64,000 nucleotides of DNA from an uncultured Pirellulaceae bacterium (lineage in GTDB: Bacteria; Planctomycetota; Planctomycetia; Pirellulales; Pirellulaceae): assembly GCA_937929805.1 (NCBI GenBank), contig CALFUT010000041.1:1-64000 (forward strand), given 5' to 3'. The position numbers were made by a program, and so were the translations under genes. The notes beneath the pieces were generated by a model. It made no database searches. It was not told the origin of the DNA and saw only the letters and a list, made by a program, of their open reading frames with translations. Shown one piece after another: positions 53,321 to 57,260 of the stretch (position 1 is its first letter; the number at the start of each line of letters is the position of its first letter).

Positions 53321-54029
53321 CTATTTCGAACCGGAACCTTTTGGCCCCGAACCGCCGGAAATCGATTTCGGCGCGACCTTGGGATCTGCCTTGCTGGTGT
53401 CGGATGCACCACCCGGTTCGGAGCCCACGAACTTCAACGAAGCCGAATTGATGCAGTAGCGAAGACCGGTAGGTTGGGGACCGTCAGGGAACACGTGTCC
53501 AAGGTGAGCATCGCAGCGGCTGCAGACGACTTCGGTGCGAGTCATAAACAATGAGGTGTCGGTATGCTCGGTAACGTTCTCTGGGGTGATCGGTTGGTAG
53601 TAGCTGGGCCAGCCGGTGCCCGAACGAAACTTGGTTTTAGAATCGAACAAGGGTTGGTCGCAGCAGACGCAAGTGTACGTGCCCTTCTTTTTGTTATCCC
53701 AATAGTCGCCGGTGAACGCCCGTTCGGTTCCTTGTTCACGCGTCACGTAATACTGCATGTCGGTCAGCTGCTTCCGCCACTGCTCGGGCGTTTTCACGAC
53801 CTTCTTTTTCGATCCGGTATCCTGAGCATTCGCGCTGGCCGTGCTCTCACTATCAGAAGCATTGGCATTGACTTTTTCGCTCGAACCTTCGGTCGGCGTC
53901 TCGTTTCCAATCTGCCGCGCTGCGGTCTGAGGGAACTGCGCGACTGCGATTCCAATCCCCAAAACGAAAGCGATGGCGAGCAGCATGAACGGCAGCAAGG
54001 AATTGATGTTGCAGCATTGGGTTTTCATG
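53321..54029 (-). CDS. msrB: Peptide-methionine (R)-S-oxide reductase MsrB, membrane/secreted
   Basis: [27 protein letters not shown]...[35 protein letters not shown]; start [14 protein letters not shown] at 54029 preferred. Confidence 0.95.
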
Positions 54030-54440
54030 GTTCGGCTCTTGGAGGTTCGGTATTGGTGGTTCGAAAAGGCATCAAGGTGGTTCGAAAAGGCATCAAGGTG
54101 ATTGGGTTTGCTTGAACGGTGGCGTAACTGGGACGCAAGCAATCCAAATTCGCTTACTTGCCTGAGTTAGCGTTTTTGACGGGAATCTTTCAAGCACTCG
54201 TGCGTTCAAGTTTATCCCGTCGACCCGGTCTGTGAGAACCGAAACCGACGAGATGCGGCAACAACGTCTCGGTTACGGGCTCCGTGAATCGGGCCACGTG
54301 AATCAGATCACGTTCAGAAATGCGGTTGGCGTCTCAGAATGAGAGCTTGGGGGCGTTTCTTGGATCGGCGATCGCATCGCCTTGCCGGTTTGCTGCTTTA
54401 AAATGTGGGATCCCCTGGCATTTTCAAGAAAAAATACTCT

Positions 54441-54457
54441 TTGGCACGACACCTGCT
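54441..54457 (+). promoter_or_regulatory. Candidate sigma-54 (-24/-12) promoter
   Basis: TTGGCACGACACCTGCT: GG and GC elements separated by exactly 10 nt; one mismatch to TTGGCACG-N4-TTGCW. Confidence 0.6.
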
Positions 54458-54467
54458 TGGCTAAGTT

Positions 54468-54701
54468 TTGTGCGAGCGAGCACGCCAAAGGCCTCATCTC
54501 ATCTCTACGCCGTCTCAGAGGTCGCCCGCTTGCACCCTTTTCTTTCCTTAAGAAACGATTGCCGGACCCTACCTACGAACCTGTCCTTGGGTTCTAACCA
54601 GTGACCATTCCCGATCCTCACAGCGGGAACGTTCCTCACCGGTCGCTCAATCCGGTTACGAATGCCGCCGACCAGCTACTAGCTGGCGGCGGCTTTTTTT
54701 T
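54468..54701 (+). ncRNA. Candidate structured non-coding RNA between sigma-54-like promoter and terminator
   Basis: No convincing ORF initiates within it; stem-loops TCCCG(N10)CGGGA at 54609-54628 and ACCGG(N9)CCGGT at 54638-54656, then the terminator hairpin. Confidence 0.45.
54664..54701 (+). terminator. Strong Rho-independent terminator
   Basis: GCCGCCGACCAGCTACTAGCTGGCGGCGGC followed by TTTTTTTT. Confidence 0.9.
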
Positions 54702-54862: not shown

Positions 54863-56917
54863 GTGATGTCTCAGTCGATTCTTCTGCAGCCATGGGAAGG
54901 CAACTACGGAGGTGTTCCGCCTTGGGATCAGATTTGTCCCGAGGAGTTTCCGGAAGCGTTTGATGGTGCGATCAAAGAAGCAAACGTTGAAATTGAAGCG
55001 ATCGCAGACTCAAGTGAACCCGCTACTTTTGAAAATACACTCGAAGCACTCGAACGAGCCGGCCAAACGCTCGACCGGCTGACATCAATGTTTGGTGTTC
55101 ACGCGGGCAATTTGAACTTGGGCCCAATCCCCGAGATGGAATCTCAGATCGCACAAAAGCTGGCGGCATGGCACGATTCGGTGACTCAGAATCAAAAGCT
55201 GTTTGATCGAATCAAGGATGTCAAAGAACATGACCAGTTTGATACGCTCACGGCGGTCCAGCAGCGGTTGGTCGAAGAACGTTACAAATCCTTTGTGCGT
55301 CGTGGCGCGAGTCTTTCCGATGATGACAAAACCGAGCTTTCAAAGATCAACTCAAATTTGGCCGACTTGTACACGAAGTTCAGCCAAAACGTGTTGGCCG
55401 ATGAAGAGAAATACGTCACTTGGGTCGAGGACGAAGACAGACTTGCCGGTTTGCCGGACAGCTTGATCGCTTCGATGGCTGCGGCGGCAGAAGGGAAAGG
55501 ACAGCCGGGGAAATGGGCGATCGAAAACACCCGATCTTCGATGGAGCCGTTTCTTTCGTTCGCTGAAGACCGGGAGCTTCGAGAGCAAGTGTGGCGGACG
55601 TACTTTAGCCGCTGTGACCACGGAGACGAAAACGACAACAAGGGTATTATCACCTCGATACTCAAGCTGCGTGCTCGCCGCGCGAAATTGCTTGGCTATC
55701 AGACACATGCTCACTGGCGACTGGAGCCGCAGATGGCGAAAACGCCTGAAGCGGCGATGGACCTAATGACGAACGTCTGGTCGAAAGCGGTCGCGCGTGT
55801 GCGCGAAGAGGTTGCCGACATGCAGGCAATCGCAGATGCCGAAGCCTCGCAGATCAAGATCGAACCATGGGACTATCGGTACTACGCGGAAAAGGTTCGG
55901 GCGGCGAAGTACGATCTCGATTTTAATTTGGTTAAGCCTTACCTTCAGCTGAGCCAGCTTGTGGAAGGCATGATGTGGGCTGCGTCGCAGGTTTTTTCGC
56001 TGCAGTTCAACCAAGTTCATGACGTGCCGGTGTTTCATCCGGATGTTGAAGTCTGGCAAGTGCTCGACCACGACGGTGGCGAGATCGGATTGTTCTATCT
56101 TGATCCCTACGCAAGGAAGGGGAAGCGAAGCGGCGCTTGGATGACGTCGTATCGTGATCAGCATTGCATGGATCGGCCGGTGACGCCGCTGGTTTCGAAT
56201 AACTCGAACTTTATTAAGGCCCAAGCTGGTCAACCGACCTTGATTTCGTGGGATGACGCGACGACGTTATTCCACGAGTTCGGTCACGCTTTGCACGGTC
56301 TGTTGAGTAAGGTCACTTGGCCCAGTCAGTCAGGCACGAATGTCGCCCACGATTTTGTTGAGTTTCCTTCTCAGGTGTATGAGCACTGGTTGTCGACGCC
56401 CGAAGTCCTGAAAAAGTTCGCGACCCATTACCAGACCGGTGAGCCGATGCCTGAGGAGCTGCTGGAGAAGATTGAGAACGCGGCAACCTTCAACCAAGGT
56501 TTCGGCACGGTCGAGTTTCTAGCAAGTGCCTTGGTCGACATGAAGTTGCATCTGGCGGGCGATACGGCAATTGATCCGGAGCAATTCGAAAAAGAAACTT
56601 TGGCGGATTTGGGGATGCCGTCGGAAATCGTAATGAGGCACCGGATGCCTCATTTCAGCCACATTTTTTCGGGAGACGGTTACTCGGCCGGTTACTACAG
56701 CTACCTGTGGGCGGACGCTTTGACGGCCGATGCGGCTGAAGCGTTCGAGGAAGCGGGCAGTTTCTTCGATCAAAAACTTGGTCAGAGATTGAAGGAAACC
56801 GTGCTGACGGTAGGCGATACCGTTGAAGCGGCGGAAAGCTTTCGACGATTTCGCGGACGGGATGTCGACACGTCGTCGCTGCTGCGAAAACGCGGCTTCC
56901 CGGTGGACGCAAATTGA
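54863..56917 (+). CDS. M3-family zinc metallopeptidase (oligopeptidase A-like)
   Basis: TTLFHEFGHALHGLLS HExxH motif and full M3 architecture. Confidence 0.95.
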   Translation: MMSQSILLQPWEGNYGGVPPWDQICPEEFPEAFDGAIKEANVEIEAIADSSEPATFENTLEALERAGQTLDRLTSMFGVHAGNLNLGPIPEMESQIAQKLAAWHDSVTQNQKLFDRIKDVKEHDQFDTLTAVQQRLVEERYKSFVRRGASLSDDDKTELSKINSNLADLYTKFSQNVLADEEKYVTWVEDEDRLAGLPDSLIASMAAAAEGKGQPGKWAIENTRSSMEPFLSFAEDRELREQVWRTYFSRCDHGDENDNKGIITSILKLRARRAKLLGYQTHAHWRLEPQMAKTPEAAMDLMTNVWSKAVARVREEVADMQAIADAEASQIKIEPWDYRYYAEKVRAAKYDLDFNLVKPYLQLSQLVEGMMWAASQVFSLQFNQVHDVPVFHPDVEVWQVLDHDGGEIGLFYLDPYARKGKRSGAWMTSYRDQHCMDRPVTPLVSNNSNFIKAQAGQPTLISWDDATTLFHEFGHALHGLLSKVTWPSQSGTNVAHDFVEFPSQVYEHWLSTPEVLKKFATHYQTGEPMPEELLEKIENAATFNQGFGTVEFLASALVDMKLHLAGDTAIDPEQFEKETLADLGMPSEIVMRHRMPHFSHIFSGDGYSAGYYSYLWADALTADAAEAFEEAGSFFDQKLGQRLKETVLTVGDTVEAAESFRRFRGRDVDTSSLLRKRGFPVDAN

Positions 56918-56988: not shown

Positions 56989-57260
56989 TTTGGGAGCGGA
57001 AGGCTCCGTCCACCCCACTTCGCTGGCTGAGTTTTTTTCTGAGCACGGCTCGGACGGAGCCTCGACCCTCCCGGGCATGCACGTCACTCCGCACGGCTCA
57101 GGCGGAGCCTCGCCCTCCCGGCGACGCCAAAGTGCAGGGAGTGGAAGGCTCCGTCCGCTCCACTTCGATGGCTGAGTTTTTTTCTGGGCACGGCTCGGAC
57201 GGAGCCTCGCCCTCCCGGCGACACGCCGCTTTAGCACACCGGTGAAATTGAAAAACTGAC
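56989..57260. repeat. GC-rich palindromic dispersed repeat, copy C (two tandem units)
   Basis: Two GGAAGGCTCCGTCC...GAGTTTTTTTCTG(A/G)GCACGGCTCGGACGGAGCCTCG units, ending GCGACACGCCGCTTTAGCACACCGGTGAAATTGAAAAACTG. Confidence 0.9.

Follow-up and report, generated by a model that had tools for sequence, protein, structure and literature searches.

What, if anything, is encoded in the gap between msrB and the gene of an M3 peptidase in this Pirellulaceae genome, where a sequence-only reading had placed a structured small RNA under the control of sigma-54? The window, that is, the whole stretch of 64,000 nucleotides analysed, corresponds to contig C41 in a genome of 4.2 Mb, and it was compared with a genus sample of 28 genomes. 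Both flanks of the gap were identified by Pfam, in agreement with the earlier placement of the unit:

53321-54028, minus strand: msrB (SelR domain, Pfam SelR 1.6e-54), divergent from the RNA.
54866-56917, plus strand: peptidase family M3 gene (Pfam Peptidase_M3 1e-120), downstream of the terminator.

The answer proposed here is that positions 54468-54701 probably are a free-standing, activator-switched sigma-54 small RNA gene, acting in trans by means of a C/U-rich loop.

Elements of the unit, from promoter to terminator

Four elements of the gap, all on the same strand, delimit the candidate:

54441-54457, plus strand: sigma-54 (-24/-12) promoter TTGGCACGACACCTGCT, kept in 34/36 family copies, with rpoN in the own genome.
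54468-54701, plus strand: predicted small RNA of about 232 nt, from the expected +1 to the end of the T-run, without a conserved frame and folding more stably than shuffles (MFE z = -4.3, 0/200); transcription not shown.
54550-54660, plus strand: lineage-specific 3' part with extra hairpins, aligning poorly even to the closest relative.
54664-54701, plus strand: intrinsic terminator, a 13-bp G+C-rich hairpin and T8 (-26.1 kcal/mol), its position kept in the relative G010.

The near-consensus -24/-12 element with exact GG-N10-GC spacing, noticed from the letters alone, was confirmed as an element of the TGGCAC-N5-TTGC type with GG-N10-GC at 54442-54456, and the +1 is expected near 54468 because the -12 position corresponds to C54456. 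The GC-rich hairpin followed by eight T residues is equally present, occupying 54664-54693 (GCCGCCG-A-CCAGCT-ACT-AGCTGG-CGGCGGC) and 54694-54701. Within the window by itself, one -24/-12 pattern was counted against 1.22 expected, and a generic terminator scan gave 3 against 2.6, neither being above chance; the significance of both elements rests on comparative data.

Two further observations concern the surroundings of the unit. A tandem repeat, ggttcgaaaaggcatcaagg(t), is found at 54054-54095, just upstream of msrB, and similar peptides (e.g., GRARLRPSRA) recur in short frames of both strands at about 56990-57240, which suggests that the DNA around the end of the M3 gene is repetitive.

Fold, spread and coding potential of the RNA family

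A nucleotide similarity search of 60 relatives returned a single real match, in G010 (82%), where the element occupies the same msrB/M3 gap as in the window; a DNA match in G048 was rejected, being the coding sequence of an ABC transporter. Comparing the window with G010, TGGCAC and TGC are kept with equal spacing and equal distance to the hairpin, the flanking bases of the promoter having diverged, and five changes fall within stems with pairing kept in all five. A covariance model of the hairpin (R1) was built from these two sequences only, with the promoter left out, and it describes the following parts:

54470-54535, plus strand: conserved 5' hairpin (covariance models R1-R3), with an outer stem at 54470-54478/54527-54535 and an inner stem at 54490-54495/54518-54523.
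54496-54517, plus strand: unpaired, C/U-rich apical loop AUCUCAUCUCUACGCCGUCUCA, proposed as an mRNA-pairing seed, a function that is inferred.

R1 recovered one full-length copy in each of 13/28 genus genomes, plus one in another genus, and the successive rounds R2 and R3 extended the family to 23/28 genus genomes and to 28 Pirellulaceae genomes of five genera, reaching a total of 36 copies, with two or three in several genomes. At one locus (L223, G006:C4:27891-28122), two copies lie about 170 nt apart, the second having no recognisable promoter of its own. Among the weak matches, L073, L074 and L076 (E 0.06-0.08) were rejected as structurally poor and lacking a promoter, and L075, at a comparable E-value, shows the promoter, the loop and a terminator; in general, weak matches without the box have a poor structure or lie within coding sequence. 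Matches in G133 and G513 were false, consisting of coding-like sequence without a promoter, and a shortened-motif scan of genome contigs was too permissive, as only one of the 80 loci listed, that of G012, was real.

In the alignment of 28 sequences, compensatory double changes occur in 14 of the 15 pairs and 96.9% of the cells are paired, the double-changed cells numbering 78 against 22 in shuffles, where none of 500 reached the observed value, and sliding the pairing partners lowers the paired share to 32-50%. The smaller alignment A5, used to train R2, has double changes in 9/15 pairs; insert letters had been deleted manually from its sequences to bring the stems into register, and A7 was then aligned to the R2 model, so that the pair counts lean towards the modelled structure. 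The loop, with a family core of about UCUCAUCNCAUCCGCCGUCUCA, is the most conserved unpaired stretch of the family alignment.

The promoter, which the models omit, was found as TGG[C/T]A-N7-TGC with its first T located 28-32 nt before the hairpin stem in 34 of the 36 copies, the remaining two being the second copy of a tandem pair and one truncated where its contig ends. In the first 14 loci from R1, TTGGCA(C/T)...TGC or a close form had been seen by eye upstream of every one (14/14), and RpoN is encoded in the own genome (PF04552 E 2.6e-60) as well as in 26/28 genus genomes. Terminators were detected automatically downstream of 34/36 copies; for several G018-like copies the script halted at an earlier T-run and so underestimated the RNA length, and the sequence itself shows the true terminator, AGGCGGCTGGTTTTCTCCGGTCGCCT with its T-run. 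The RNAs of the relatives are typically about 110-180 nt long, compared to about 215-232 nt in the window and G010.

The sequence-only reading would have been refuted if neither its -24/-12 motif nor its stem-loops were conserved in relatives; when this was run, the promoter proved to be kept, the stems of the 5' hairpin to covary over the relatives' loci and the terminators to recur, which lends comparative support to a promoter-to-terminator small RNA unit whose transcription is not shown. The stem-loops, at least two in number, are present as described; the 5' hairpin and the terminator are conserved, and the hairpins at 54550-54660 are not found in most relatives. Promoter, enhancer-like site (see below), covarying hairpin, terminator, non-coding nature and family spread are supported, as far as sequence comparison can support them.

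Regarding its novelty, neither the candidate region nor the 14 relative loci matched any Rfam family at the gathering score, and at a permissive threshold the best match of the candidate region was BcKCsr2 (E 5.7), nothing being credible. A plasmid collection held no match to the family, and no sigma-54-dependent small RNA of planctomycetes was found described in open-access papers. The order-level search gave no true match outside the family, with the best 13-22 candidates per genome scored, and the absence outside the five genera is for this reason weak evidence. The RNA is rated as a new, uncatalogued family in Pirellulaceae, whose copies keep promoter, fold and terminator.

Other explanations of the unit have to be weighed against this context. 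A chance motif with no real unit behind it would agree with the frequency of the sigma-54 pattern within the window alone, but a promoter at a constant place in copies found without it, together with the hairpin covariation, has already refuted this comparatively and leaves it practically no credit. It is extremely improbable that a short peptide, S(E/G)HAKGLI(S/F)SL.RLRGR.LAP, read in one frame of the window and G010, is encoded: several changes between the two are silent in that frame, but in the window no start codon follows the expected +1 in this frame, the substitutions track base pairing, and over the 36 copies no reading frame is conserved, no length is common and the indels are not multiples of three. 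The view that no credible protein starts inside the unit holds for the other frames too, as the 71-aa (54382-54597) and 94-aa (54320-54604) frames both begin upstream of the promoter, and a 59-aa GTG frame from 54601 reads through the terminator. A 5' leader of the M3 gene, acting as a riboswitch or attenuator, could be suspected from the start of that gene about 165 nt downstream on the same strand and from the synteny kept in G010. However, the copies sit between genes and their flanking genes vary by locus and orientation, some copies pointing at an opposite-strand gene, so that the RNA does not serve as leader to any single gene; moreover, in other members of the genus the conserved core is missing at the M3 loci. 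Genomic context has thus largely refuted the leader, which we consider very unlikely.

An msrB-like neighbour accompanies the RNA copy in G010 and G012 as well. The G012 copy (L213) lies between this gene, divergent as in the window, and a quinolinate synthase-like gene.

The upstream palindrome and its candidate regulon

The unit described from the letters alone was borne out, but that description missed the membership in a multi-copy family and a site further upstream:

54332-54344, plus strand: palindrome TCTCAGAATGAGA, a candidate enhancer for binding an activator, lying 110 nt before the -24 element.

This is the sole TCTC-N5-GAGA site in the window. Sites of this type, usually TCTCANNN(T/C)GAGA, were found upstream of 29 of the 34 family promoters, against a mean of 0.07 and a maximum of 2 in 2000 shuffles. 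Relative to the -24 box, their positions cluster at -76/-79, -88, -97/-98, -110, -122, -131, -143 and -155, many copies having two sites (-97 and -78), and the distinct positions are best fitted by a period of about 11 bp (R = 0.81), a phasing obtained from few distinct positions and a scanned period.

Used as a bare DNA pattern, the palindrome plus the sigma-54 box has 58 matches in 23/28 genomes, compared to 4 for the reversed pattern, and the single strict match in the genome of the window is the RNA at 54468-54701. As a reciprocal test, further loci were located by this pattern with no RNA model, and three classes of units composed of promoter, hairpin and terminator were recognised: class A (8 genomes; L229, L230, L234, L237, L239, L240, L249, L250), sharing AUCCCAUCCGCC in the loop; class C (3 genomes; L231-L233), with a different loop; and class D (about 6 genomes; L254-L256, L246, L236, L269), with GAUCUCCCGAAGC or a close form. 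In classes A and C and in some of class D, R3 scores immediately after the promoter, with E from 1e-7 to 0.03 in 52 kb. The same arrangement of promoter, hairpin and terminator behind the palindrome is seen in a tandem unit of G027 (L266). A few protein-coding genes also follow the palindrome and a sigma-54 promoter, namely those of a CARDB-domain secreted protein (L258-L261), a small protein matching Flp_Fap only marginally (L262-L263), a Na/Ca exchanger (L228/L247) and a sigma-70-type factor (L267).

The own genome encodes six full bEBP (Sigma54_activat) domains (L278-L283), two of them in NtrC-like response regulators, others in proteins of the FHA/GAF and GAF types and one in a short protein that lacks a sensor domain, the domains being read by eye where the Pfam scan was not applied. 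None of these six could be linked to the palindrome. The canonical GAFTGA loop is present in two of them, including one response regulator, and the other four carry GAFTDA (twice), GSFTDA and GAFTSA. It is an evenly balanced question whether one activator of SypG/LuxO-like specificity runs a Pirellulaceae regulon with mainly paralogous small RNAs as its output, which would fall into at least four loop classes, be arranged partly in tandem and form a Qrr-like hub.

Proposed action and relation to known small RNAs

For the window's own unit, a bEBP-type activator would bind TCTCANNN(T/C)GAGA, here the palindrome at 54332-54344, on a signal of unknown kind, and DNA looping would let sigma-54 RNA polymerase open the -24/-12 promoter. 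The transcript would stop at the hairpin followed by T8, and the C/U-rich loop of its 5' hairpin would most likely pair with purine-rich translation-start regions of mRNAs, repressing these targets much as Qrr or LhrC do. That the unit is transcribed, that a particular activator responds to a signal, and that the RNA acts on its targets by antisense pairing are all inferences. When 302 own genes, from about 0.45 Mb of this genome, were scanned for targets, the loop formed no better duplexes than its shuffled versions did, so that antisense action is unproven and stays a proposal.

That missing pairing signal, along with the multi-copy family, the strongly conserved loop and the covarying stem, would also suit a sigma-54-driven RNA that works as a protein sponge or decoy, as CrcZ does towards Hfq/Crc and CsrB towards CsrA. 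This possibility is kept as an unlikely one, because the loop is a single motif rather than an array of repeated binding sites, the apical loop, read on the transcribed strand, contains no CsrA-type GGA, and the loops differ between related classes, which fits paralogues matched to different mRNA targets. Pairing of the loop with mRNAs is retained as the preferred, though inferred, reading.

Sigma-54-dependent small RNAs include CrcZ and CrcY of Pseudomonas and Pxr of Myxococcus, CrcZ being a decoy of Hfq/Crc with repeated motifs. The planctomycete RNA has no Rfam match with any of these, and it lacks the repeated motifs of CrcZ. We know of no involvement of sigma-54 in LhrC. This Listeria RNA, controlled by the LisRK two-component system, is multi-copy and blocks ribosome-binding sites through C/U-rich unpaired loops, Hfq not being needed for lapB (PMC4132741). 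LhrC and other UCCC-motif RNAs have the multiple copies and the C/U-rich unpaired loop in common with the planctomycete RNA; however, the sequences are unrelated and pairing has not been shown for the latter. The Rhodopirellula-1 motif, a candidate structured RNA described by Weinberg in 2010, partly from planctomycetes and without a listed Rfam accession, is apparently given as a cis-regulatory candidate, unlike the free-standing unit reported here (PMC2864571).

Closer in wiring are the Qrr RNAs of Vibrio, activated by LuxO/SypG, which share the sigma-54 promoter, upstream activator palindromes, the intrinsic terminator and paralogous copies, qrr1 also having activator sites in its -175 to -60 region. 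The SypG site of V. fischeri, TTCTCANNNTGMDWN, is nearly identical to the family palindrome and fits its TTCTCANNNTGAGAC form (PMC10162802). Nevertheless, no Rfam Qrr model matches the planctomycete RNA, which belongs to a different phylum, has an unidentified activator and differs in fold, being a single long hairpin interrupted by an asymmetric internal loop. GlmY/GlmZ of enterobacteria are likewise sigma-54-dependent, under the bEBP QseF/GlrR (PMC6075780, PMC3162934), and resemble the planctomycete RNA in this control, but without an Rfam match in sequence or structure, and no link to glmS is known for the planctomycete RNA. The transcriptional wiring is thus Qrr/GlmY-like, yet the RNA is outside those families.

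An RNA family is defined together with its promoter, enhancer-like site and structure, exact sequences being available, and it points to a regulon that seems to convert a single unknown signal mainly into small RNAs. This suggests that the proteobacterial wiring of sigma-54, bEBP and small RNA is present, or has independently arisen, in a distant phylum.
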